Assembly: GCF_014217805.1 (NCBI RefSeq)
Contig: NZ_CP055156.1
Span: 5,152,585 to 5,216,584 of the forward strand
DNA length: 64,000 nt
Origin: Adhaeribacter swui
GTDB lineage: Bacteria > Bacteroidota > Bacteroidia > Cytophagales > Hymenobacteraceae
Reading direction: 5' to 3'
The translations under genes were made by a program, and so were the position numbers. Each line of letters opens with the position of its first letter. The first letter of the stretch is position 1. The notes under the pieces are model-generated. The model saw only the letters and a list, made by a program, of their open reading frames with translations, was not told the origin of the DNA and did not search any database. Below, piece by piece: positions 42,613 to 62,968 of this stretch.

Positions 42613-45237
42613 TTAATCTACCAGAATACGGCAGTCTTGCGTAATCCGGAAATTTTCTACCAGTTTAATGGCATCTGTAATATCTTCCGAAAAAATGCAA
42701 ATTAAAGAATCGCGGGAGGCGTTTTCCAGGGCATATGTTATGGCGCGCAACTCTTCCGGAATTACTTTAATTTCTTTCGCTCCGCTCTGGTTTATTCCCT
42801 GGGTTAGTAAACAAATTATTTTTTCCGGGTCGGCGCCCCGCAAATCTTTATCTTGCCGGATAATAATTTCATCGAATAACTCGCCGGCTAATTTACCCAG
42901 TTCTACGGTATCTTCATCCCGACGGTCCCCAACGCCCGCGATAATGCCTACTTTGTGGGAGGCGGGCGTACCGTTCAAGAAATCGCCAATGGCTTTTAAT
43001 CCGGCTGGATTGTGGGCGTAATCAATAAGAACTTCAAAATTTGAAAAACGGAATAAATTCATTCTTCCCGGAGTTTTAGCCGGCGACGGAATAAAGGTGC
43101 GCAAGGCATTTTTAATATCATAAACGGGTACATGCGACACGTAAGCGGCTAAAGTAGCGGCCAACACGTTTTCGATATTAAACCGTGCCCGCCCATTAAA
43201 AGTAAGCGGAATATCTACCACCCGGTCGACCCGGGTTTTATAGCTGTTTTTATAAATGGTAATGTACCCGTTTTCCAGAACGGCAGCTAAACCGCCTTTA
43301 CTGATATGTTTTATAATGCGCGGATTATTTTCGTCCATGCTAAAATAAGCTAACCGGCAGCTTACTTCTTTGCCCATGGCATAAACCAAATCATCGTCGG
43401 CGTTTAAAACGGCGTAACCCTCCGGAAAAACAGTTTTCGGGATTACCCCTTTTACCCGGGCCATATCTTCTAGGGTATTAATATCGCGTAAGCCTAAGTG
43501 GTCGGCGGCCACGTTGGTAACAATACCCACATCGCAGTGCTGAAACCCTAAACCAGACCGCAGCATTCCGCCCCGGGCGCATTCTAGCACGGCAAAATTT
43601 ACGGTAGGGTCTTTTAACACAAACTCCGTACTGCGAGCACCAGTAGTATCGCCTTTTTCGAGCATACGATCTTGAATGTAAATACCATCGGTAGTAGTAA
43701 ACCCAACCTGATAGCCCGCCGATTTAATTATATGCGCCGTTAAACGCGTGGTTGTAGTTTTACCATTGGTGCCGGTTACCGCAATAATCGGAATGCGCGA
43801 AGGGCAGTCGCGGGGAAATAACATGTCAATTACCGGTTCGGCTACGTTGCGGGGTAATCCATCGGTCGGTGATATATGCATCCGGAAGCCAGGAGCGGCA
43901 TTTACTTCCAGAACTGCTCCCCGGGCTTCGTTTAAAGGAATGGCAATATCGGTGGTCATTACATCAATGCCGCATACATCTAATCCAATAATTCCGGCAA
44001 TCCGCTCGGCCATTAATACGTTATACGGATCAACAATATCGGTAACATCGGTGGCCGTGCCACCGGTGCTTATATTGGCCGTACTTTTTAAAAATAAAAC
44101 CTCCCCGGGGGGTAAAACAGATTTCACCGTTAATTCTTTGTCGCGCAAAATAGCATTGGTTTGTTTATCTACTTTAATCCGGGTTAGCTCTTTTTCGTGC
44201 CCAATACCTCGTCTAGGATCCGAATTTACCTGATCTATTAACTCCTGGATAGTAGAAACCCCATCGCCTATTACCATGGCCGGAGTACGTTTAGCCGCGG
44301 CCACAAACTTTTTGTTGATTACCAGTAGCCGAAAATCAAAGCCTTGAATAAACTGCTCCACGATTACGGCTTCGGAGTACCTTTGGGCTTCATTTAAACC
44401 TTTCAGGGCTTCTTTCCAGTTTTTAATGTTAATAGTGGCTCCTTTTCCATGATTGCCATCGAGGGGTTTGGTTACAATCGGGTATCCTAATTCGGCAATA
44501 GCTTGTTTTAATTCGGCGGCATCGTACACGGTAGTGCCGCGGGGCACGGGCACGCCGGCTTCTTCCAACATAGCTTTGGTAGCATTTTTATCTCCGGCCA
44601 ACTCGGCGGCAAAAACGGCGGTGCGGCAGGTCATGGTAGCCTGTATGCGTTTCTGATTAACCCCGTAGCCTAGTTGAATTAGCGAATTGCGGTTTAAGCG
44701 AATAAAGGGAATGTTCCGGCTGACGGCTTCGGCCACAATGGAATAGGTACTGGGCCCGATATGCTCATCTTCCCGGATTTCGTGGAGCTTGTCTACATCT
44801 TTTTGTAAATTATACTTAGCTCCTTTAATTAAGGCTTCGGTGATACGCACGGCGGCCCGGGCGGCATATTCGCCGGCTCTTTCTTCCTGGTAAGAAAAAA
44901 TAATATAGTTACTGCCAGCATCCGGCGAGGGGAAAATGCGTCCGTAGCCACAATCCATGCCGCCTAGTTTTTGTAATTCTAGGGCAATATGTTCTATTAC
45001 ATGACCGAAAGTAGTGCCTTCCCGAACCGCTTTAAAAAATCCGCCTTCATTTCCTTCCGCAGCCCGGTGTTCGTACATTTCCGGAAACATGGCTTCGAGT
45101 CTTTCCGGAAAACCTTTTAATGAATTGGTTAAAACCTGATAAAATTCGCCTAAGGCAACTTTTAAGACAATAATTTTAGGATGTTTAACAGACCAGTAAT
45201 TAGGACCACGCATGATCCTTAAGTCGATGATTTCCAT
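42613..45237 (-). CDS. cphA: Cyanophycin synthetase
   Basis: Polymerises Asp and Arg into cyanophycin, a nitrogen and carbon reserve granule. 874 residues from the ATG at 45237; the TTG at 45258 would add seven. Domains: N-terminal domain (about 1-160), ATP-grasp ligase domain (about 215-480), and a Mur-ligase-like domain with the ATP loop TGTNGKTTTTR at about 490-500, then the Mur C-terminal part (NVLAATLAAYVSHVPVYDI, DYAHNPAGL, AGVGDRRDEDTVELG). The N-domain contains HVIEH (HxxEH), which fits the zinc site recently described as primer-making in some cyanophycin synthetases. Downstream of cphB, 58 bases apart. Confidence 0.93.
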   Translation of the reverse strand: MEIIDLRIMRGPNYWSVKHPKIIVLKVALGEFYQVLTNSLKGFPERLEAMFPEMYEHRAAEGNEGGFFKAVREGTTFGHVIEHIALELQKLGGMDCGYGRIFPSPDAGSNYIIFSYQEERAGEYAARAAVRITEALIKGAKYNLQKDVDKLHEIREDEHIGPSTYSIVAEAVSRNIPFIRLNRNSLIQLGYGVNQKRIQATMTCRTAVFAAELAGDKNATKAMLEEAGVPVPRGTTVYDAAELKQAIAELGYPIVTKPLDGNHGKGATINIKNWKEALKGLNEAQRYSEAVIVEQFIQGFDFRLLVINKKFVAAAKRTPAMVIGDGVSTIQELIDQVNSDPRRGIGHEKELTRIKVDKQTNAILRDKELTVKSVLPPGEVLFLKSTANISTGGTATDVTDIVDPYNVLMAERIAGIIGLDVCGIDVMTTDIAIPLNEARGAVLEVNAAPGFRMHISPTDGLPRNVAEPVIDMLFPRDCPSRIPIIAVTGTNGKTTTTRLTAHIIKSAGYQVGFTTTDGIYIQDRMLEKGDTTGARSTEFVLKDPTVNFAVLECARGGMLRSGLGFQHCDVGIVTNVAADHLGLRDINTLEDMARVKGVIPKTVFPEGYAVLNADDDLVYAMGKEVSCRLAYFSMDENNPRIIKHISKGGLAAVLENGYITIYKNSYKTRVDRVVDIPLTFNGRARFNIENVLAATLAAYVSHVPVYDIKNALRTFIPSPAKTPGRMNLFRFSNFEVLIDYAHNPAGLKAIGDFLNGTPASHKVGIIAGVGDRRDEDTVELGKLAGELFDEIIIRQDKDLRGADPEKIICLLTQGINQSGAKEIKVIPEELRAITYALENASRDSLICIFSEDITDAIKLVENFRITQDCRILVD

Positions 45238-45295
45238 GAAGGGGAATGTTACGTACAATTATTTAAAAAATACAGATTTATCAAACATGCATTTG

Positions 45296-46189
45296 TTACT
45301 TGTGAAAGCTATCCGACACATTTATCTGGTACTGGTCGCCTTGACCGAGCATATGCACTATTAAATTACGTATGGTTACGGGGGCACCGGTATCTACTAA
45401 GTGTACGTTAGTTTCTGTGGATTGGTGACCATCTACGATCACGATTAAACCACTGCCAATAACTTCTAAATTCCGGCCTTCCCGCACAATAATGCCGGTA
45501 TCTTCTTCCAGCCCAATGCCAATGCAACCGGGATTGGTGGCAATGGCCTGGGTCATGCGAACGATGCGGCCCCGGGCAATAAAATGCGTATCTATGGCAA
45601 TGTCTTTTAAAAATTCTAACCCAGTTGTTATCCGCACTTCGCCTTTTAAGAAACCGCCGCCGTTGGTTGGGCCTTCGTAAATCATGGGAGTTGACATGGC
45701 CATGGCGCCGGCGCTGGTACCTGCTATTACAATGTTATCGTAGGTATACCGGAATTTTAAAATATTTAAAAATTCGGTGCCGCCAAAAATGGCGGTTAAC
45801 CGGAGTTGGTCGCCGCCGGTAAACATAATTCCGTCTACCTGTTCCGCTAATTTTAAAAATTCTTCTTTACTAGCATCTTCCCGGCACCGAATATCGATCA
45901 CCTGCACGTTGGTAAGATCCAGTTTTTTAAAAGCCTTCAGGTAATCGTTGGCCGATTCTTCCGGAACCGAACTGGCGGTTGGTATAATCCCGATTAATGG
46001 ATTTTCTCTTTTAAGCTCCGTTTTAAAACAATTTAAAATACCTAGGGTAATAAAATTTTCATTGTTCCCAAGTTCTGAATTTTCCGCTGGTTCCTGACCT
46101 TTGTTCTCCTTTCCGCCAATGGCAATTAAAATTCCTTTGGGTGAAGGGCACTCCGAAGTTTGTTCAAATTTCTTTTTATTTTTTGTCAT
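45296..46189 (-). CDS. cphB: Cyanophycinase
   Basis: Serine peptidase of family S51 that cuts cyanophycin to beta-Asp-Arg dipeptides. 297 residues, about 25 longer at the N-terminus than typical (a polar leader KKKFEQTSECPSPKG, not a signal peptide). The nucleophile is in AGTSAGAMAMS, and the fold markers FTGGDQLRL and GIGLEEDTGIIV are present. First gene of the pair, with cphA after it. Making and degrading enzymes are thus cotranscribed, so control is probably post-transcriptional or by substrate level. Confidence 0.92.
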   Translation of the reverse strand: MTKNKKKFEQTSECPSPKGILIAIGGKENKGQEPAENSELGNNENFITLGILNCFKTELKRENPLIGIIPTASSVPEESANDYLKAFKKLDLTNVQVIDIRCREDASKEEFLKLAEQVDGIMFTGGDQLRLTAIFGGTEFLNILKFRYTYDNIVIAGTSAGAMAMSTPMIYEGPTNGGGFLKGEVRITTGLEFLKDIAIDTHFIARGRIVRMTQAIATNPGCIGIGLEEDTGIIVREGRNLEVIGSGLIVIVDGHQSTETNVHLVDTGAPVTIRNLIVHMLGQGDQYQINVSDSFHK

Positions 46190-46597
46190 AGCGTGTTTTA
46201 AAAGCCTGATAGTTGGCTCCTAATTCCATCCAATAGTATATCCGGTGAATAGTGAATAAAGTAGTGTTAGTTGTATTGAAAATACGCTTTTAGCTTCTAA
46301 AAAGATGAAAGGTTCCGGAATAATCCGGGTTGAATTTTGATTTTCCGTATTTGTTTAAAAAGCCCTACCGTATTAATCCGGATGGATGCAAATACCAGTA
46401 AAATTAGCAGGTGTTTAAACCGTAGCGCTACTTGCTTCTTTTTATTTATGCGCCTTTTTTCTGCCGCTAAAAACAAGTAAACAAGAGCCGGGCATTAGAT
46501 AAAATTTAAAAATTTACCGAACTTTGCTTACCCGAAACATTGTTTTCAGGGTATCTTTTTATACTAATAATCCGGGATAAATACCCGGCCGGCTTTC
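46190..46597. other. Intergenic region between divergent cphB and the FAD dehydrogenase gene
   Basis: 408 bases without a supported feature. No perfect TAnnTTTG box was seen on either strand, only AACTTTG near 46522. There is no open frame worth reporting. Confidence 0.5.
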
Positions 46598-48178
46598 ATG
46601 AAAAAAGAATTAGAATTGGTACTTCCCCCCGAAGTAGCCTACGACGAAGCATTACTGCACCAGGCAATTTTAAAAAAAGCGGGTGTTCTCCTGGAAGATG
46701 TTTCCTTTATTCATAAAATAAAACGATCGGTAGATGCCCGCGGCCGGAATGTGTTGTTGCGGGTACGGGCAGATGTTTATTTTCAAGATCCGCCGGCTGA
46801 TATTCTTTCTCCTACTTATACCTATCCGCAGGTAGCCAAAGCGCCTTCAGTTATTATTGTGGGGGCTGGCCCGGCTGGTTTGTTTGCGGCCTTGCGGTGC
46901 ATTGAATTAGGTTTAAAACCTATTATTATAGAACGTGGAAAAGACGTGCGAAGCCGCCGCCGCGATTTGGCTGCTATTAACAAAGAACATACGGTAAATC
47001 CAGATTCTAATTACTGCTTTGGGGAAGGCGGCGCCGGAACGTACTCTGATGGTAAACTTTATACCCGTTCTAAAAAACGGGGCGATGTAAACCGCGTGCT
47101 GCAAATTTTAGTACAACACGGCGCTACCCCCGATATTTTGTTCGATGCCCATCCGCATATTGGAACCAACAAATTACCCGTAATTATAGCCAACATGCGG
47201 GAAGCGGTTTCACAAGCCGGAGGCGAAATTTTATTTAACACCCGGGTTACAGATTTTATTCTGGAGCATCAAACTATTAAGGGAGTAATAACGCAGGATG
47301 GTAAAGCAATTGAAGGCGAAAGCGTTATTTTAGCTACCGGTCACTCGGCCCGGGATATCTATGAATTATTAGCCGCCAAAAACATTTACATCGAGGCTAA
47401 ACCCTTTGCCATGGGCGTTCGGGTAGAGCACCAGCAGTCTTTAATTGATTCTATTCAGTACCATTGCGATAACCGGGGGTCTTACTTGCCGGCTTCTTCG
47501 TACGCTTTGGTTCACCAGGTTACGTACCAGCAAAAGCAACGGGGCATTTTTTCTTTTTGCATGTGCCCGGGTGGTTTTATTGTGCCGTCGGCAACCGCTC
47601 CCGGCGAAGTAGTGGTAAACGGCATGTCGCCTAGTCGGCGTGATTCTAAGTATGCCAATTCCGGCATAGTGGTAGCCATTGAAACGGAGGACATGGATTT
47701 AGAAACCCACGGAGCCTTGGCGGGTTTGCGCCTGCAACAGGAACTGGAACAAAAAGCTTGTTTGGTAGCGGGTGGCACCCAAAAAGCCCCGGCTCAACTT
47801 TTAAAAGATTTTACGCAATTTAAAACATCAAATCAGCTTTTAGAAACTTCGTACCAGCCCGGTTTAACTTCCGTAGACCTGAACGAGGTTTTACCGGCGG
47901 GCATTGCTTACCGGTTGCGTGAAGGTTTTAAACATTTTGGCAGCAAATTGAAAGGGTATTTAAGCAACGAGGCTCAAATAATTGGAGTAGAAAGCCGTAC
48001 CTCGTCTCCCGTACGCATTCCGCGTGACCGCGAAACCTTGGAACACGTACAAATTACTAATCTGTATCCTTGCGGTGAGGGTGCCGGATACGCGGGCGGT
48101 ATTGTGTCGGCGGCCATGGATGGGGAACGTTGCGCCGAAAAAATAGCTTTAAAAGTTAAAAATCGGGTAATTTCTTAA
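46598..48178 (+). CDS. FAD-dependent dehydrogenase (COG2509-like)
   Basis: 526 residues, cytoplasmic. An N-terminal alpha/beta domain (1-80) precedes the dinucleotide fold with GAGPAGLFAALRCIELG (89-105). FCMCPGGFIVPSATAPGEVVVNGMSPSRRDSKYANSGIVV is the strong hallmark of this family of uncharacterised FAD oxidoreductases. The C-terminal NLYPCGEGAGYAGGIVSAAMDG closes the FAD site. The substrate is unknown. Monocistronic. Confidence 0.9.
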   Translation: MKKELELVLPPEVAYDEALLHQAILKKAGVLLEDVSFIHKIKRSVDARGRNVLLRVRADVYFQDPPADILSPTYTYPQVAKAPSVIIVGAGPAGLFAALRCIELGLKPIIIERGKDVRSRRRDLAAINKEHTVNPDSNYCFGEGGAGTYSDGKLYTRSKKRGDVNRVLQILVQHGATPDILFDAHPHIGTNKLPVIIANMREAVSQAGGEILFNTRVTDFILEHQTIKGVITQDGKAIEGESVILATGHSARDIYELLAAKNIYIEAKPFAMGVRVEHQQSLIDSIQYHCDNRGSYLPASSYALVHQVTYQQKQRGIFSFCMCPGGFIVPSATAPGEVVVNGMSPSRRDSKYANSGIVVAIETEDMDLETHGALAGLRLQQELEQKACLVAGGTQKAPAQLLKDFTQFKTSNQLLETSYQPGLTSVDLNEVLPAGIAYRLREGFKHFGSKLKGYLSNEAQIIGVESRTSSPVRIPRDRETLEHVQITNLYPCGEGAGYAGGIVSAAMDGERCAEKIALKVKNRVIS

Positions 48179-48232
48179 ACGAATTACTGTCTGGGTTGTT
48201 CCATCTTAAAAAAAGGCCTATAATCGCAAGCC

Positions 48233-48271
48233 AAATAAGAAAACAACTACCGAGTGGTTATTTTCTTATTT
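48233..48271 (+). terminator. Possible terminator of the FAD dehydrogenase gene
   Basis: An 11-bp AT-rich stem (48233-48243 with 48261-48271) with a 17-base loop that could add further pairs. No strong T-run follows, so support is moderate. Confidence 0.4.
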
Positions 48272-48344
48272 AGTGTATTTAATTTTTAGTTTATCATCTA
48301 TACCGGTAAACTTGCAAATTGCTGGTGTTTAATTATTGGTTATT

Positions 48345-48704
48345 ATGAAAAAAACAGTGGTATTAGGAGCCTCCGACAATCCTTCACGATTTGCTTACCG
48401 GGCGGTTCATAAACTAAAACAACATGGTTACGAAGTGGTACCCGTCGGAATGCGGAAAGGGGATGTGGCCGGCATTAAAATTGAAACAGAAAAAATTCCC
48501 GTTGCCAATGTAGATACGGTTACTTTGTACGTGGGGCCACAAAATCAACCTTCGTGGTACGATTATATTATCAGTTTAAAACCCAACCGTATTATTTTTA
48601 ACCCGGGAACTGAAAACCCGGAATTAGAACAAAAAGCGGCCGAGAACAATATAAAAACGTTACACCATTGCACGCTGGTAATGCTGGCCGTGGGTGAATA
48701 CTAA
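48345..48704 (+). CDS. CoA-binding domain protein
   Basis: 119 residues from the ATG at 48345; a TTG nine bases upstream is less likely. A single Rossmann-like CoA_binding domain: KTVVLGASDNPSRFAYRAVHKLKQHGYEVVPVG at the N-terminus, VDTVTLYVGPQNQPSWYDYIISLKPNRIIFNPGTENPELEQKAAENNIK in the middle, and HHCTLVMLAVGEY at the end. Stand-alone members of this family bind coenzyme A or an acyl-CoA; the cellular role is unclear. Confidence 0.9.
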   Translation: MKKTVVLGASDNPSRFAYRAVHKLKQHGYEVVPVGMRKGDVAGIKIETEKIPVANVDTVTLYVGPQNQPSWYDYIISLKPNRIIFNPGTENPELEQKAAENNIKTLHHCTLVMLAVGEY

Positions 48705-49059
48705 ATTTTTAATTTTTAAAATTTTAAAATCCTGACTACCCCAAGTAGTCAGGATTTTTTGTTTTTGGCCCGTACCGGTATACACATGTTTTTTTACTTA
48801 TAACTTGCCGGCGTTTAAACCAAAATTTAAAAAAAATTAAATTTACTACTTAAAACCTTAATCAAAAATTAATTATTTGATTCACAATTACTTAAATAAT
48901 TTAAACTTAATCAGCTATAATTGTAAAGGCGCTTTTCTTTTGATAATGCTTGTTAGATTTTATAATTTTTAAAAATACAGGCAACCTCCCCACCATGTCT
49001 TGCATCTAAATAAGCAAACACCCTAATTAAAGCTATCTGAAACAATTTTATTCATCCAC
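48705..49059. other. Intergenic region with a terminator
   Basis: 355 bases with a terminator near its left end (48726-48758); the remainder is AT-rich. No promoter box upstream of the sigma gene was recognised. Confidence 0.5.
48726..48758 (+). terminator. Terminator of the CoA-binding protein gene
   Basis: A perfect 14-bp stem (48726-48739 with 48745-48758), a 5-base loop and a T-run. It lies 22 bases beyond the stop. Confidence 0.8.
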
Positions 49060-49593
49060 GTGACCGAAGCGGAACTCTTAAAAGGTTTAGTAAAAGGAGA
49101 AGCAAAATCGCAGAAGGCTTTGTATGAGCGGTACGCGGGGCTGATGCTGGGTATTTGCCTGCGTTACTTAAAAAATCAAATGGACGCCGAAGAAATAATG
49201 TTAACCGGGTTTGTAAAAGTGTTTCAGCATATAGGTCAGTTTGAGAATAAAGGCAGTTTTGAAGGATGGATTAAAAGAATTATGGTGAACGAAGCGCTCG
49301 GTTTTTTACGAAAAAAAGAACCCATGCACTTAGCCATTGAGAAAGATGTATTGCAAATGGCAACCGAAGCAAACGCCGAACAAGATTTAGCCACCGAAGA
49401 TTTGTTGCGCTTACTGCACGAGTTGCCGGCGGGTTATCGGGCTGTTTTTAACCTGTACGCCATAGAAGGCTACTCGCACAAAGAGATAGGGGAAATGCTG
49501 GATATTTCGGAAGGAACCTCTAAGTCGCAGTTGAGTAAAGCGCGCAGCATGTTGCAACGGCGCTTGCAAAACCAGGAATCTATTACGCTTTAA
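49060..49593 (+). CDS. ECF sigma factor (second copy in the window)
   Basis: 177 residues, GTG start at 49060. Region 2 is at about 20-85 (LMLGICLRYLKNQMDAEEIMLTGFVKVFQ) and region 4 at about 118-172 (GYSHKEIGEMLDISEGTSKSQLSKARSML). It differs from the sigma factor at 17369 in its region 4 (EGTSKSQLSKAR, a SigE-like type) and is not FecR-linked. It is followed after 13 bases by a membrane protein with a cytoplasmic N-terminus, then by a barrel protein. Confidence 0.92.
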   Translation: MTEAELLKGLVKGEAKSQKALYERYAGLMLGICLRYLKNQMDAEEIMLTGFVKVFQHIGQFENKGSFEGWIKRIMVNEALGFLRKKEPMHLAIEKDVLQMATEANAEQDLATEDLLRLLHELPAGYRAVFNLYAIEGYSHKEIGEMLDISEGTSKSQLSKARSMLQRRLQNQESITL

Positions 49594-49606
49594 AGTAAAC
49601 GGTATT

Positions 49607-50431
49607 ATGAAGGAAGAAGAAGTAGATCAGTTTTTTAAAAATAAGTTTGCGAACTATACCCCCGCTCCTGCCCCGGATGCCTGGGCGCGGTTGCAAAGTA
49701 AAATGGAGTCGGAAACCAAGCAGCGCCCTTTGATGTGGGTGTATTACGCCGCCGCGGTAGTTACGCTGGTATTAGTTTCGGGAGCTTTGTTTTTTTATAA
49801 CAACTCCATTACCCAAAAAGATAACAACCTGGCTACCTTAAAACCCATTACGGTTCCATTGCAGGTAGAACCTCAGCAAGAACTAAAATTAGCAGAGTCC
49901 GAATCTGACTTACCTGCGGCTTTGCCCACGATGGAACCAGTGGTTACGGAAAAATCAGGAAAAGATGTTAAAAACACCAACACCAGCACCAAACCAGTAA
50001 AAAAAGATAAAAAATTGCGGCCTGGTATTTTGGTAGCCGCAGCCCGGCCAATACCTGAGAGTAATAAACCTATTACTGCTTCGGCTGGAATGCCAAACCC
50101 CGAAGCAACGGTTGCAACAACTTTACCGAACGCAAATAATTTAATTACCGAAGCTCCGGAAGAACAAAAAGTAATGGAAGTGATCATTAAAAAAGATCCG
50201 GAAGTAATTGCAGCCGCTACCAACGGACCCGAATACGCTACCATGGAAGAGGCTATCAAAGAAAACGTATCTAGAAAAGGCCGGTTAGTTAAAAATATTT
50301 TAAAACAAGCCCGCAATTTAAAAAACGGCGAAAAAGTAGAATTATCCACTTTAGGCTTAAATGCAAACTACCGCATTGATGTAGAAAGTAAACTCTTTAA
50401 ACAAAAATATACCAAAGTAATTAATCTTTAA
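49607..50431 (+). CDS. Single-pass membrane protein, probable anti-sigma factor of the second ECF unit
   Basis: 274 residues: a cytoplasmic N-terminal stretch with FFKNKFANYTPAPAPDAWARLQSKM (conserved-looking 'PP..W..L' pattern often seen next to Bacteroidota ECF sigma genes), a membrane helix (about 42-65), and a periplasmic Pro/Lys/Thr-rich part without clear domain. Its position after the sigma gene and its topology suggest that it binds the sigma factor. No FecR, zinc anti-sigma or RsgI signature was seen, so the role is inferred from context. Confidence 0.7.
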   Translation: MKEEEVDQFFKNKFANYTPAPAPDAWARLQSKMESETKQRPLMWVYYAAAVVTLVLVSGALFFYNNSITQKDNNLATLKPITVPLQVEPQQELKLAESESDLPAALPTMEPVVTEKSGKDVKNTNTSTKPVKKDKKLRPGILVAAARPIPESNKPITASAGMPNPEATVATTLPNANNLITEAPEEQKVMEVIIKKDPEVIAAATNGPEYATMEEAIKENVSRKGRLVKNILKQARNLKNGEKVELSTLGLNANYRIDVESKLFKQKYTKVINL

Positions 50432-50442
50432 TCCTCACATTT

Positions 50443-51585
50443 ATGAAACGCTTACTTCTAGTTACGGCCCTTATTTGGGTTGCTGCTACAGGTGTGTCTA
50501 TGGCTAACAGCCGGGCTACCTTCTCCGCCAAACCCCGCTTTCTGCAAGAAGATACCATTCAAATAAAAATGGCAGATGGGGCATCTTTAATTTTGCAAGT
50601 TAAAAACACCAGTCAGCTTAAAAATTTTCAAAATTATAGCCTCGACTCTTTAATGGTTTTGCTTAACAAGTATGTACAACAAGTAGAAAACATGAGCAAA
50701 TCCAGTTCTAACAGCTCCGCGGAAATCTCCATGACTTTTTATCCAGCCAAAGATTTAAATAATACCCAGGCTCCGGAGCAAGTTAAAATCCGGATGACGA
50801 GTTCGGGTAACGGCAACAAACAAAACTGGTCTGAGCGGACATCAGAAGTAGTAAAGGTTGAGGTTAATTACGAAGATGATCGCGACAATCAGCCCGAAGA
50901 AAAAAGCCTACGCGTATTGATTAACTCGCGCGACGACAGCACCCGGAAAGCAAAAATGGAACGAAAAATGAACAGAAGGCACCGTTTTTTTAGTACCATT
51001 GACCTGGGCCTGAATACTTTTGTGAACCTGCCCGAAACCAACAACAGCCTCCTGGATTTAAAACCGCTGGGTTCCCGTTACGTAAGTTTAAACCAATACA
51101 TCGCTACCCGCATAGGTGGGGTTCGGAGCCCGCTACACGTTCGCACTGGTCTGGAATTAGCTTTTAACAACTACATGCTGGACAAAAACCACCGGATTGC
51201 CGATGAAAATGATGTTACGGTATTTTACAATGAGCCTAACTTATCGTTGGAAAAAAGCAAACTAACCGCCTCCTCTATTAATTTACCGGTAATAATTGAG
51301 CTTAACTTTAAAGATAAAAATGGCAAAGAATCTTTTAAAATTGGCGGCGGCGGATTTATTGGCTACCGCTTAGGTTCTCATACCAAAATTAAGTATCAAA
51401 GCGAAGGCAATACCTACAAAGACAAAGAACGCGGCAACTACAACCTGGAAGATATGCAATACGGCCTCAACTTTATGATTGGCTATAAATGGATTAATTT
51501 GTTTGCTAAATACAATATGAACGATTTATTTAAAGAAAACCGCGGCCCCAAAATGAATGTAGTGAGCTTTGGCTTCCGGATTTAA
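50443..51585 (+). CDS. Outer-membrane beta-barrel protein (PorT-like)
   Basis: 380 residues with a signal peptide (ends about 22, SMAN). The periplasmic part (about 23-180) is rich in charged residues, including KAKMERKMNRRHRFFSTIDL just before the barrel; a small barrel then runs to the end (NVVSFGFRI). The tail (FIGYRLGSHTKIKYQS, MIGYKWINLFAKYNMNDLF) resembles PorT-family outer-membrane barrels. Third gene of the sigma unit, 11 bases after its neighbour. Function unknown; possibly the stress target or sensor. Confidence 0.75.
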   Translation: MKRLLLVTALIWVAATGVSMANSRATFSAKPRFLQEDTIQIKMADGASLILQVKNTSQLKNFQNYSLDSLMVLLNKYVQQVENMSKSSSNSSAEISMTFYPAKDLNNTQAPEQVKIRMTSSGNGNKQNWSERTSEVVKVEVNYEDDRDNQPEEKSLRVLINSRDDSTRKAKMERKMNRRHRFFSTIDLGLNTFVNLPETNNSLLDLKPLGSRYVSLNQYIATRIGGVRSPLHVRTGLELAFNNYMLDKNHRIADENDVTVFYNEPNLSLEKSKLTASSINLPVIIELNFKDKNGKESFKIGGGGFIGYRLGSHTKIKYQSEGNTYKDKERGNYNLEDMQYGLNFMIGYKWINLFAKYNMNDLFKENRGPKMNVVSFGFRI

Positions 51586-58202: not shown

Positions 58203-61200
58203 ATGAAAATATTTCCTTACTTGTTTAAAAACCTGGAATGGAGAGTATTTTTTAAAAAATTTACTTTTTCTGTTTCTACTTTCTTTTTATATCGCTCGCT
58301 ACACTTCTTTTTTAAATTTTTAATATTTCTTATTGGCTCTTTTTTTATTACCCAACAGACATGGGCTGGCGACGGCCGCATTGTCGTGGCGCCATCCAAT
58401 AGTTTTGGTATTCGGGGAGTCATGAACTTCTCGGTAAATTATCGCTACTTACCCACGCCTGCCGATATTACCCGCTTGCGCCGTGCCATAGAAGGTGCCA
58501 GTGATATTATTTGCGATGCTACCGACGGGCAAATTGTTTTTGGCACCGTTACCATTACAGCCGGCGGCACCAACGACGATCGGGCCGACGTCTGGATTCT
58601 GCCGCAAAATGGACGCTCGGGTGTAAGTTTCTTTTTAAATGGGAGCGGCTTAGGTACCCTGGGTTCGCACATCGACCTGTACCAGGGCGGTATTGATGGC
58701 GGCGTTCTGGCTCACGAACTGGGCCATTTAGCTTTTGGCTTGGGCGACGAATATGACGAGCAATGCCGTTGGGGCGGACCGTGCGGCATCGGGCCAGCCT
58801 TTGATCCGGGAACCATTGATGCCCGCAATAACACTTTAATGCAACAAAGTGGAATTGATCAAACCGAGTTTACCGTAGCGGCCAACCACGACTTATTGCG
58901 GGGCGATGGTACTCCTTGTGTAAATAACAACTGCAGCGGCATGGCCGTTGATTGCAGCACTTGCCAGGGATATAATGGTACTACCAACCGTTTTGAAACG
59001 ACGCAGCATACCCAGATGCACGGCGGTAATTCGGAGTGGCAAATTATAGCCAATAATTATCCCGCTCTTGGCCTGGTTATACCGGCCTTACCGGTAGCCG
59101 CTCAACCCTCTAATTGCCGGGCATACCTGAACATTATAGAAACCGTAAATGCCAGCGACCTGGTTTGTTTGGTAATGGACCGCTCCGGTAGTATGCAGGA
59201 AAGAGATGCCGGCGATGGTACCCGCATGGAATTTGCGAAAGCGGCCGCCCGTGCTTTTGTGGATGTATCTTTGGGATTAGGTAATAATTACCAGTTAGGT
59301 TTAGTTTCCTTTAGCGATGCTGCCACCGTAGATCAACCGGTGCAATTACTTACTTCCGCCAGTGCCACTACTATAAAAAATTCAATTAATGCTTTAAATG
59401 CCAGTGGTAATACTGCCATAGGTGATGGCTTAATTTCCGGAGCTTTTGAGATGATTGGTAAAACCGGATCCAATCCTACTTTGTTCTTATTGTCTGATGG
59501 CCAAAATAACCGGGGCACCAATCCCCAGGATGTTATTCCGGTTTTAAGAAGTAGAAACATCCGCACGTTTACCATACCAGTAGGTAATGGCGCCGACCGG
59601 CCTTTGCTGTCCAACATTGCTTCTACCACCGGGGGCCGGATGCTGGATGCTCCCACCGGCGATGAACTCCCGCCAATTTACATGGAACTGGCCGCTATTC
59701 ACTCGGGCAATAGTTTGGTGCTGCCGCGCAATGAGTTCTCGCTGTATGGTCAGATAATTATTGGCGCCCCCAAACCCGCCGATAAGCCGCAGGGCGCTTT
59801 GGTGGAAAGTCAAAATTACCCGGTAAACGTTGAAGCCGATGCGCAGGGCCTTATTGTATTTTTATCAAACCGCAACCCTACAGTTAAAAATTGGTTTCCT
59901 ACGTTTACCATTACAGGCCCCGATGGCAGCGTAATTACGCCCCGCGATCAGCCTTTTATTGGTACCGATACCTATTATCAGATTATCCGGATACCAAAAC
60001 CGGCTCCGGGGCAATGGAATATTAAGCTAGAGTCGGCCACAGGACAGGCCACTTTCGGGCACGTTTTAGCTTTTGTCCAAAATCCTTCGCCGGATTTGCA
60101 CGTCGATGCTTTCCCAAAAGTAGTAACCCCCTCTGAAAAAGTAACTATCTCAGCTATGGCAGCTTACGGCGCCGAAATAGAAGATGGGGTGGAATACAGT
60201 GGTTTTGTGCTTCGACCCGATAGTTCTTACTCCCCGATTACGTTTACCAAAAACCCTTTTACGCGTAAAGTTTCGGCTACCTTCGACGATTATAACGGCC
60301 GTGGCATTTACCAGGCTACCATTCAAACGGTGGTTTCGGGCGGCGCTAAATTGTTCCAGGGCGAAAGAATTTTTCCGGGCACCCCCGATCCGGGTATTAC
60401 GGTTCCGTATTTTACCCGTACGGCTACGGCTTCCTTTTTCTTAAACAGCCCCAATTTTCCACCCGACCATTCCGAAGATTCAGATAAAGACGGTATACCG
60501 AATAATGTGGAAGATAGGTTTCCGGATGTAGATAATGATGGCATCCCTAACTCTTTAGACGAAGATTCCGATAACGATGACATTCCGGACAAAGTAGAAA
60601 GTGTCGGGGACTTAAACCAAAACGGCATACCGGATTTTGTCGACCCCAACAACGCTACGAACTGCCCAGATAACCAATCTGGTCTTAAAATTGGTAAAAT
60701 AACCCTGCAAAGACCTACCTGCGGCCAAGCAAACGGCAGTATACAAATTGCCGTAACGGGCGGGCGCGGCAAATACACCTACAAGTGGAGCCATCTTACC
60801 AACTTAAACGAACCCATTGCGGGCAAGCTTCCCGATGGCATTTACAGTATTATTGTAACAGATGAGGCCGGCTGTAGCGCTTCTTCTATTTTTAACTTGT
60901 TACAGGATTGCTCTAAAAATGTGGTGGTACAAAATAACTGCCCCGATAAAGTGGTGCAAGGCTGTAAATGGAATTTCCGGTTAAAAGTAGATGTACGGAA
61001 ATCGGCTGCGCCCCATAACCTATTGGGTAGCTTTACCGGTAAGCTCAGTTGGGATCCGGCCCAACTCGAAGCCGTTGGTACCGCCTCGCTCCTGAATAAA
61101 TACAAAGGTTACGTTCGGTTAGATAAAGCCGCCGGTACTTTAAGCTTTAACGGTGCTAATTCAACCGGTATGGCGGGTATTGTAGATATTCTTAGTACCG

Positions 61201-62291
61201 ATTTTATAACCAAAGCCAAAGCAGGCGAAAAAATTAGCTTAAAAGCCGAATTCTCGGTAATGGCTGCTGCCAAAACTTACGCCGATCTCACCTCTAAAAT
61301 GTTAATCTCTATTTGCGAGCCAACGGTTAGTAAAGGCGGCGGGGTACTGGGCGATGTAAACGAAGACACAAAAGTAAACTCTACCGATGGTTTAATTGTG
61401 CTGTCGTACGATGCCGGCAAGGCCGTGCCTAAAGCTGTTAAAACTCGCATTGATCAAGGATTTGGCGATGTAAACCTGGATAAGAAAACCAACTCTACCG
61501 ATGGCTTGATTATTCTGGATTACGAACTGCGGAACAACAGTAAATTCCCGGTAGGTACTCCTTTCTGCCCCGCCGACACGAAGGCCCGCTTAGCCCAAAC
61601 TCTAAACCAAGGCAAAGTACTGATTTCGGCCAATGGTTCGGTTAATAAAACCGACGAATCCATGATGGAAGTACCGGTTATTGTGGACATGAGTCCAACT
61701 GGCGAAGCTTTAGGTAGCTTTACAGCCGCCGTTACCTGGAATACGGCTGCTCTCGAACTGATCAGCATTAGTGGTGGCGAGTCTCAAGGCTTTGCCGATC
61801 CTATCGTGAATCAGGATGAGCTAAAAGCGGGCAAACTAATGGTAGTTAATGCGAATCCGGCGGGAGCTAAAGGTGCGGTTCATATTTTCACGCTTCAGTT
61901 TAAAAAGCGGAGTTTACTCAGTGAAAAAGACTTAATCTTAAATTTCACCAGCTTAGCTAGCGCTTACAACTTTACCGATTTAACTGCTAACGTACAAGCC
62001 CAGGTTAAAATAACCGATGAAGCCCTGGACAATGATTTTGAAGTGGCTCCGAATCCGTTTAACCAGGCTACCCTGGTGCAGTACCGCGTTAAAACAACTA
62101 CCCAGGTAGATATTAGCGTATTTAATGCGGCCGGCGAAAAAATTATTACTTTGGTAAAAGGCCGCGTAAAAGCGGGCCAACACACCTACCGTTGGGATAC
62201 CAGCGCCGGTAATGTAATGCCCGGTATGTATATCCTGAAAATGCAGGCTGGCAAGGATAACCTAACCAAAAAAGTGATTTACTACAAATAA
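58203..62291 (+). CDS. CLCA-like secreted protein: metalloprotease, vWA, TSP3, SprB, cohesin-dockerin-cohesin and T9SS domains
   Basis: 1362 residues. Long signal region (to about 55, helix 33-51). CLCA-type metalloprotease-like domain (56-300) with HELGH at 171-175 and the following GLGDEYDE, the HExxHxxxGxxDE pattern of animal CLCA proteins. vWA domain (320-500) with a full MIDAS: Asp326, Ser328, Ser330, Thr404, Asp432. Beta-sandwich region (501-740) as in CLCA. Thrombospondin-3-like calcium repeats (757-815). SprB-like repeat (828-903). Cohesin-like domain (about 922-1037). Dockerin-like pair of calcium loops (1049-1110, GDVNEDTKVNSTDG twice). A second cohesin-like domain (1137-1270). T9SS sorting domain (1279-1362, APNPFN...ILKMQAG). 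Likely an exported, calcium-dependent surface protein with possible self-assembly; activity unproven. Confidence 0.85.
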   Translation: MKIFPYLFKNLEWRVFFKKFTFSVSTFFLYRSLHFFFKFLIFLIGSFFITQQTWAGDGRIVVAPSNSFGIRGVMNFSVNYRYLPTPADITRLRRAIEGASDIICDATDGQIVFGTVTITAGGTNDDRADVWILPQNGRSGVSFFLNGSGLGTLGSHIDLYQGGIDGGVLAHELGHLAFGLGDEYDEQCRWGGPCGIGPAFDPGTIDARNNTLMQQSGIDQTEFTVAANHDLLRGDGTPCVNNNCSGMAVDCSTCQGYNGTTNRFETTQHTQMHGGNSEWQIIANNYPALGLVIPALPVAAQPSNCRAYLNIIETVNASDLVCLVMDRSGSMQERDAGDGTRMEFAKAAARAFVDVSLGLGNNYQLGLVSFSDAATVDQPVQLLTSASATTIKNSINALNASGNTAIGDGLISGAFEMIGKTGSNPTLFLLSDGQNNRGTNPQDVIPVLRSRNIRTFTIPVGNGADRPLLSNIASTTGGRMLDAPTGDELPPIYMELAAIHSGNSLVLPRNEFSLYGQIIIGAPKPADKPQGALVESQNYPVNVEADAQGLIVFLSNRNPTVKNWFPTFTITGPDGSVITPRDQPFIGTDTYYQIIRIPKPAPGQWNIKLESATGQATFGHVLAFVQNPSPDLHVDAFPKVVTPSEKVTISAMAAYGAEIEDGVEYSGFVLRPDSSYSPITFTKNPFTRKVSATFDDYNGRGIYQATIQTVVSGGAKLFQGERIFPGTPDPGITVPYFTRTATASFFLNSPNFPPDHSEDSDKDGIPNNVEDRFPDVDNDGIPNSLDEDSDNDDIPDKVESVGDLNQNGIPDFVDPNNATNCPDNQSGLKIGKITLQRPTCGQANGSIQIAVTGGRGKYTYKWSHLTNLNEPIAGKLPDGIYSIIVTDEAGCSASSIFNLLQDCSKNVVVQNNCPDKVVQGCKWNFRLKVDVRKSAAPHNLLGSFTGKLSWDPAQLEAVGTASLLNKYKGYVRLDKAAGTLSFNGANSTGMAGIVDILSTDFITKAKAGEKISLKAEFSVMAAAKTYADLTSKMLISICEPTVSKGGGVLGDVNEDTKVNSTDGLIVLSYDAGKAVPKAVKTRIDQGFGDVNLDKKTNSTDGLIILDYELRNNSKFPVGTPFCPADTKARLAQTLNQGKVLISANGSVNKTDESMMEVPVIVDMSPTGEALGSFTAAVTWNTAALELISISGGESQGFADPIVNQDELKAGKLMVVNANPAGAKGAVHIFTLQFKKRSLLSEKDLILNFTSLASAYNFTDLTANVQAQVKITDEALDNDFEVAPNPFNQATLVQYRVKTTTQVDISVFNAAGEKIITLVKGRVKAGQHTYRWDTSAGNVMPGMYILKMQAGKDNLTKKVIYYK

Positions 62292-62312
62292 TTTTTAAAA
62301 TTTTGTTCTTTT

Positions 62313-62346
62313 ACTATAAAGCCTGCTGCTTAGCAGGCTTTATAGT
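62313..62346 (+). terminator. Terminator of the CLCA-like gene
   Basis: A perfect 15-bp stem (62313-62327 with 62332-62346) with a 4-base loop, 22 bases past the stop. The T-run is weak. Confidence 0.65.
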
Positions 62347-62419
62347 TATACAAAAGTTATTCTACATGCGTTTTATAACTAAAGCTTTATTGCGCATGTG
62401 GTGTTAATTAAAAAATCTC

Positions 62420-62968
62420 ATGAAAAAAATACTGATACTAATAGCCTTACTCCCCGTGATAATGGCTAAAGCCGATCAACCACCTTGTTGGTGCGATTTC
62501 AGCGTGAAATCATCTAATCAGCAATTTGTAGCGCACGTGAAAGGCGTAAAAAACTCCGCTAAACTTAATCCACCTTATGGTCAATGGGAGATATTTGTTT
62601 ATAAAAAAAACGCGGCAAAAGATAGCACTTTACTCTGGAAGAGCCATTACCTGTACGATGGCTACACCGATGGCGTTTTATCGGATGATGGGCAATATTT
62701 TGCTTACGTTAATTTCTGGTACCAAAACCAGGCACCGGTTATTCAATTGTATCATAATGGCAAGCACACCGGCAGCATTGCGGGTACCGCGTTTAATATA
62801 CCAGCCGGTAAAATTACCAACACCGTTTCGCATAAATTATGGCTGACCCGCGAAGGGCAATCTTACAGCTTTGTTAAAGAAAATAAAGATTACCTTTTAC
62901 AAGTAACAACCATCGATGGAAAAGCGCATCTGATTGATTGCGCTAAAGCTGAATTAATAAAATCGTAA
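62420..62968 (+). CDS. Secreted protein of unknown function, 182 residues
   Basis: A signal peptide (KILILIALLPVIMAKA) is followed by a Cys-containing start (PPCWCDF) and a beta-rich domain with Trp/Tyr-rich strands (SSNQQFVAHVKGV, WKSHYLYDGYTDGVLSDDGQYFAYVNFWYQ). The pattern SDDGQYFAYVNFW recalls a single beta-propeller-type blade, but not enough blades exist for a propeller. Periplasmic or secreted. It follows the CLCA-like gene on the same strand, separated by a terminator. I do not recognise the family. Confidence 0.7.
   Translation: MKKILILIALLPVIMAKADQPPCWCDFSVKSSNQQFVAHVKGVKNSAKLNPPYGQWEIFVYKKNAAKDSTLLWKSHYLYDGYTDGVLSDDGQYFAYVNFWYQNQAPVIQLYHNGKHTGSIAGTAFNIPAGKITNTVSHKLWLTREGQSYSFVKENKDYLLQVTTIDGKAHLIDCAKAELIKS

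Follow-up and report, generated by a model that had tools for sequence, protein, structure and literature searches.

A CLCA-like protein with a cohesin–dockerin–cohesin block and a type IX secretion tail in Adhaeribacter swui

Introduction

Bacterial proteins of the CLCA type are already known: the family account of Lenart et al. (2013; PMC3650047) describes prokaryotic members with a patchy spread and gives the active-site consensus HExxHxxxGxxDEY. In animals, the C-terminal product of CLCA1 forms disulfide dimers, which assemble non-covalently with the N-terminal part into oligomers; CLCA1 is also able to cut MUC2, as set out in PMC6851300. CLCA2 cleaves itself in trans, a reaction that requires both zinc and the glutamate of HEXXH, and its precursors form a complex, according to the data in PMC10669480. 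Bacterial cohesin–dockerin pairs, as reported in PMC6030884, withstand over 120 pN. Here we examine a 64,000-nucleotide stretch of Adhaeribacter swui contig NZ_CP055156.1 (positions 5,152,585–5,216,584; the window, with positions below counted from its first letter), which contains an open reading frame (ORF) combining a CLCA-like head, a cohesin–dockerin–cohesin block, and a type IX secretion system (T9SS) tail.

Results

The ORF occupies 58203..62291 of the + strand, as do all its modules, and encodes 1362 aa. Pfam families matched above cut-off were VWA, VWA_2, Por_Secre_tail, SprB, FlgD_ig, and Dockerin_1. An initial annotation made from the DNA alone had proposed this frame and module series; both stand, with module limits agreeing to within about 15 residues, and the head, the cohesin–dockerin–cohesin series, and the tail are supported by the evidence given below.

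The N-terminal zincin (CLCA_N-like) domain, with its Cys-containing C-terminal part, spans residues 55–320 (58365..59162), and a structure model of this region supports the zincin fold. Its metal site HELGHLAFGLGDEY (residues 171–184; 58713..58754), in which HELGH occupies residues 171–175 and DEY residues 182–184, fits the CLCA consensus and contains the HExxHxxxGxxDE at 171–183 noted initially. One match to the motif pattern occurs in the 64-kb window, against 0/100 shuffles; the site is invariant in 11 aligned sequences, 10 of which were fetched by the same motif and so are not independent evidence. The ORF scored 13.4 bits against PF08434, under the curated cut-off of 25.6 and nearly equaled by M43 at 13.2, while this profile matched 8 of the 11 N-domain rows at E≤1, one of which (L101) passes the cut-off with 33.0 bits. 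The best NCBIfam match, the animal CLCA model TIGR00868, covers residues 271–504 far under its whole-protein cut-off. The order of catalytic domain, Cys-containing part, vWA domain with metal-ion-dependent adhesion site (MIDAS), and beta region is that of CLCA proteins, the beta part being judged among bacterial relatives. The proposed CLCA relationship is thus upheld by homology through relatives, motif, and domain order and not by the PF08434 score, and because that cut-off is missed we call the protein CLCA-like rather than a CLCA member. The IgA peptidase M64 profile PF09471 gave no match in the ORF and matched 5/11 family rows at E≤1 (best 0.003).

The vWA domain (residues 321–489; 59163..59669) matches PF00092 at 57.1 bits, lies within the TIGR00868 match, and carries the complete MIDAS that had been predicted, D326xS328xS330 (DRSGS, 326–330), T404, and D432. 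Residues 500–745 (59700..60437), which we class as putatively beta-rich by analogy with CLCA, match GBD_Hemicentin under cut-off. Four TSP3-like calcium-type repeats follow (residues 755–818; 60465..60656), a region matched in 6/10 relatives; four copies of D-x-D/N-x-D/N-G/D-I-P at residues 759–810 agree with the earlier assignment, whereas the Pfam run listed no TSP3 match, so that the label rests on the motif. The SprB repeat at residues 838–864 (60714..60794) is borne out by PF13573 (31.7 bits, cut-off 28). The chain ends in a T9SS type A sorting tail (residues 1281–1359; 62043..62279) that scores 45.8 bits against TIGR04183, cut-off 23, and 34.4 bits against PF18962, in line with the tail originally proposed; T9SS tails accounted for 24/28 matches in the host genome and, together with the SprB repeat, suggest by themselves a Bacteroidota host.

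Between the SprB repeat and the tail lies the three-module block. Cohesin-like module 1 (residues 908–1043; 60924..61331) is supported as a cohesin fold by a structure model of residues 905–1277. The type I dockerin (residues 1048–1110; 61344..61532) matches PF00404 at 26.2 bits (cut-off 22.9), and a profile search links it to dockerins of the PDB at E 2.3e-7. Dockerin calcium loops place their ligands at positions 1, 3, 5, 9, and 12; in both loops, DVNEDTKVNSTD and DVNLDKKTNSTD (61350–61388 and 61464–61502), all five are kept. The loops are more alike over 13 residues than those of six relatives, and at the DNA level they share 74% identity across 62 nt. Ligand retention and likeness in protein and DNA together argue for upkeep of the loops. 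Cohesin-like module 2 (residues 1136–1266; 61608..62000) is 32% identical to module 1 over 98 positions (E 2.5e-9), and its strand pattern is seen in the model. The Cohesin profile PF00963 found no match in the ORF and gave two relatives of the block 16.9 and 19.6 bits against a cut-off of 24.1; the modules are accordingly termed cohesin-like. Of the C-terminal folds foreseen for checking, cohesin 1 is supported by the model and the dockerin by PF00404; module 2 would be a cohesin by its homology to module 1.

A motif pattern scan of one genome per species (84,980 species) returned at least 117 loci, 10 of which matched the N-domain at BLAST E≤1e-10. All 10 show similarity across zincin, vWA, and beta regions alike. 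Two of these relatives (L036, L101) end at a contig edge, leaving eight for C-terminal comparison. One of them, from Flavilitoribacter nigricans (L059/L162), carries the same cohesin–dockerin–cohesin–T9SS tail and is 43% identical over residues 24–1361 of the Adhaeribacter protein. The search for homologs with the same module order yielded one full chain, and the initial impression of an unusual domain set needs correcting in that the set is not unique: the chain is present in a second genus, and its C-terminal block also occurs on M43-like proteases. The other ends differ. In the Bacteroidota metagenome-assembled genome (MAG) KLAP184 (L046/L160; 2951–5962 of L160, − strand), the CLCA-like core is followed by a possible outer-membrane barrel (PF13505, 19.0 bits, cut-off 28.7); a Nostoc MAG (L124) and Marinicella (L068) have a hydrophobic C-terminal helix by eye; a Planctomycetota protein (L028/L161; 2138–6223 of L161, − strand) has a HYR domain (39.8 bits) and an end that looks dockerin-like by eye, possibly an independent pairing of a CLCA-like head with a dockerin; and L062, L129, and L114 end without an assigned domain. 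Judged from these differing sequences, a common CLCA-like core appears to be tethered by differing means. The Marinicella protein also has well over 100 extra residues in the zincin region, ahead of the conserved S-x-W part. No plasmid had an N-domain match; among viral contigs, none of 20 pattern stretches was confirmed as an N-domain, and a looser scan gave one M64-like frame.

In the host genome, PF00404 gave 10 matches: the CLCA-like gene above cut-off, two (at 2490503 and 2166665) above it only with neighbors summed, and seven below. Those two and the match at 1950251, all on contig C3, were rejected as dockerins, each having one loop by a simple pattern; they lie in long frames resembling SusC/TonB receptors by eye. 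Elsewhere the modules are frequent, with many cohesins and many dockerins in F. nigricans (G772) and in genomes G771, G856, and G947, while in G1053 only its M43-like protein exceeded the dockerin cut-off or was matched by the block profile. A hand count at E≤0.1, pairing matches that agreed in contig and in frame length, found 20 frames with both a dockerin and a cohesin in 6/9 genomes, 3 of them M43-like block proteins. Seven of the 20 stretches were fetched and six were usable (L210 had no usable frame); in all six proteins (L206, L207, L208, L209, L211, and L212), which come from F. nigricans, its order-mate G856, and MAG KLAP184, the last 430 residues run from a dockerin through a cohesin to a T9SS tail, with Dockerin_1 above cut-off in 2/6, Cohesin in 2/6, and the tail in 3/6. 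Contig 91 of G947 holds, at about 44000–51000, 2998-aa frames with many cohesins in series that look scaffoldin-like, and the M43-like protease gene of G845 (L168) is interrupted by an in-frame stop codon.

The gene appears isolated within its order. Matches to the N part were found in 0/389 other sampled genomes of the host order (E≤1e-15, with up to 3 candidates scored in each) and to the C block in 0/240 (E≤1e-8); in a phylum sample that overlaps the order sample, 1/394 other genomes had matches, to the vWA domain only. The data suggest that the host order differs from that of F. nigricans. In the host, hemF and PAP2 are separated by the CLCA-like gene plus a 182-aa ORF; homologs of these flanking genes in the congener G557 (86 and 80% identity) are adjacent, with about 120 nt between frames and neither of the two intervening genes there. 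This empty site points to a gain in the host lineage, though loss in others could also account for it. The gene's GC content of 47.2% is just over the 39.0–46.9% of 15 other window ORFs, its GC3 of 46.9% is inside their range, and the repeat analysis gave no sign of a mobile element. The 182-aa ORF (62420–62968) looks secreted and has no Pfam match. Upstream of the zincin domain, residues 1–55 (58203..58367) read by eye as a probable long signal peptide; 3' of the stop codon, an inverted repeat with 22-nt arms (86% complementary) and a 4-nt loop is a possible terminator (62306..62353).

Discussion

We infer export, proteolysis, MIDAS binding, and self-binding for the CLCA-like protein, combined as follows: type IX secretion would export it to the cell surface; the zincin head would cut protein; the vWA domain would bind a partner or substrate through its MIDAS; a stalk would be made up of the beta region together with the calcium-type repeats; and the dockerin of one copy would bind a cohesin of another in a calcium-dependent manner, so that the heads are arrayed on the surface. 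This reading, of an exported zinc metalloprotease whose copies are held together by dockerin–cohesin contacts, is proposed by analogy with animal CLCA1 and CLCA2, and we favor it tentatively, with a little less than even confidence. Head-to-tail linking of chains is possible, and our failure to find a further cohesin or two-loop dockerin in the host genome makes it likelier. Several points weigh against it. PF00963, which had no match in the host genome, also misses both cohesins of this ORF, so other divergent cohesins could escape detection; the finding of no other two-loop dockerin covers three of the nine extra PF00404 matches, the other six being weak, partial ones under the cut-off; and the block profile, for which this gene was the sole hit to E 10, had just 6 candidates scored. 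Loop 2 of the dockerin is altered in relatives, and the link from cohesin 1 to the dockerin, only ~5 residues, may restrict the geometry. In known cellulosome scaffoldins, moreover, a chain's dockerin usually does not bind its own cohesins.

The main rival would have the dockerin fold back and engage a cohesin on the same chain; the stalk next to the T9SS tail would then be compact and stiffened by calcium, and chains would stay unlinked. The two modules adjoin; the pTM of 0.70 for the modeled three-module chain (905–1277) is probably above expectation for loosely strung modules; and the dockerin–cohesin–tail ending of all six usable proteins could make a local clamp a common solution. Yet, because the link to cohesin 1 is so short, cis binding would probably proceed via cohesin 2, the less conserved module, and we judge such a clamp unlikely, if a serious contender. 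Partners might instead be other proteins, in other cells or still unrecognized, joined into a cellulosome-like network. The wealth of cohesins and dockerins in F. nigricans, G771, G856, and G947, including the multi-cohesin frames of the last, speaks for such a network, but no partner was found among the host-genome candidates covered, and in G1053 the dockerin cut-off and the block profile pick out the M43-like protein alone; we regard this reading as improbable. The remaining reading, that the gene was acquired whole from a relative of F. nigricans, its cohesin–dockerin part having since ceased to bind and a simple surface adhesin or protease being left, accords with the gene's isolation in the host order and the empty congener site; it is at odds with the retained ligands and the likeness of the loops in both protein and DNA, and we regard it as improbable too.

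Returning to linked copies, a bolder version, which strikes us as rather improbable, would add trans cutting to a self-assembling CLCA-type protease and make the dockerin–cohesin–T9SS-tail ending a general surface-assembly cassette in F. nigricans and related bacteria. If true, neighboring copies would lock into surface chains, a calcium plug-and-socket replacing the disulfide and non-covalent contacts of animal CLCA1; close heads would permit trans cutting that releases the catalytic–vWA part; and the cassette need not relate to cellulose. In any case, the protein unites a type IX export tail, a head resembling animal CLCA, and, within a single chain, the two partners of a binding pair noted for very strong binding; we found no description of this combination among the open-licence papers searched. 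As its genome yielded no other cohesin or two-loop dockerin, it offers a clean system for asking whether cohesin–dockerin binding can bring copies of one protein together without a cellulosome, and whether such assembly regulates a protease of the CLCA type. The recurrence of the ending in F. nigricans and related bacteria suggests that both modules serve more widely.

Comparison with known systems

CLCA proteins (PF08434, TIGR00868), as characterized in the family account, share with our ORF the HExxHxxxGxxDEY site and the catalytic/Cys/vWA/beta order. The carriers listed in its CLCA sections are Chloroflexi, Synergistetes, Proteobacteria, and Thermococcus, without Bacteroidota (PMC3650047), and those sections likewise name no cohesin, dockerin, or T9SS tail, whereas the ORF has all three. 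IgA peptidase M64 has a similar site, HExxHxxxxLxDEY, in the same source; its profile PF09471 is not matched. M43-like proteases of the F. nigricans order (L165–L169) carry a cohesin–dockerin–cohesin–tail block 28–34% identical to ours but have an M43 catalytic domain, without a CLCA head or vWA match (Pfam, L165 and L167); the remaining three carry HE[IV]GHWLNLRHIWGDD by eye.

The cohesin fold of module 1 and the two-loop type I dockerin are shared with cellulosomal modules and with non-cellulosomal cohesins such as 2vo8 of Clostridium perfringens and 2xdh of Archaeoglobus. Cellulosomes, however, comprise a scaffoldin and dockerin-bearing carbohydrate enzymes, and the host genome gave no PF00963 match and, among the PF00404 matches covered, no second two-loop dockerin; the ORF is without a scaffoldin or carbohydrate enzyme and unites both partners in a single chain that resembles a protease and ends in a T9SS tail. 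Among the relatives compared, the nearest is the 1387-aa protein of F. nigricans (NCBI order Saprospirales), with the same modules in the same order; it differs in dockerin loop 2 (NATD versus NSTD), in a SprB match under cut-off, and in its genomic setting, where further cohesins and dockerins abound.
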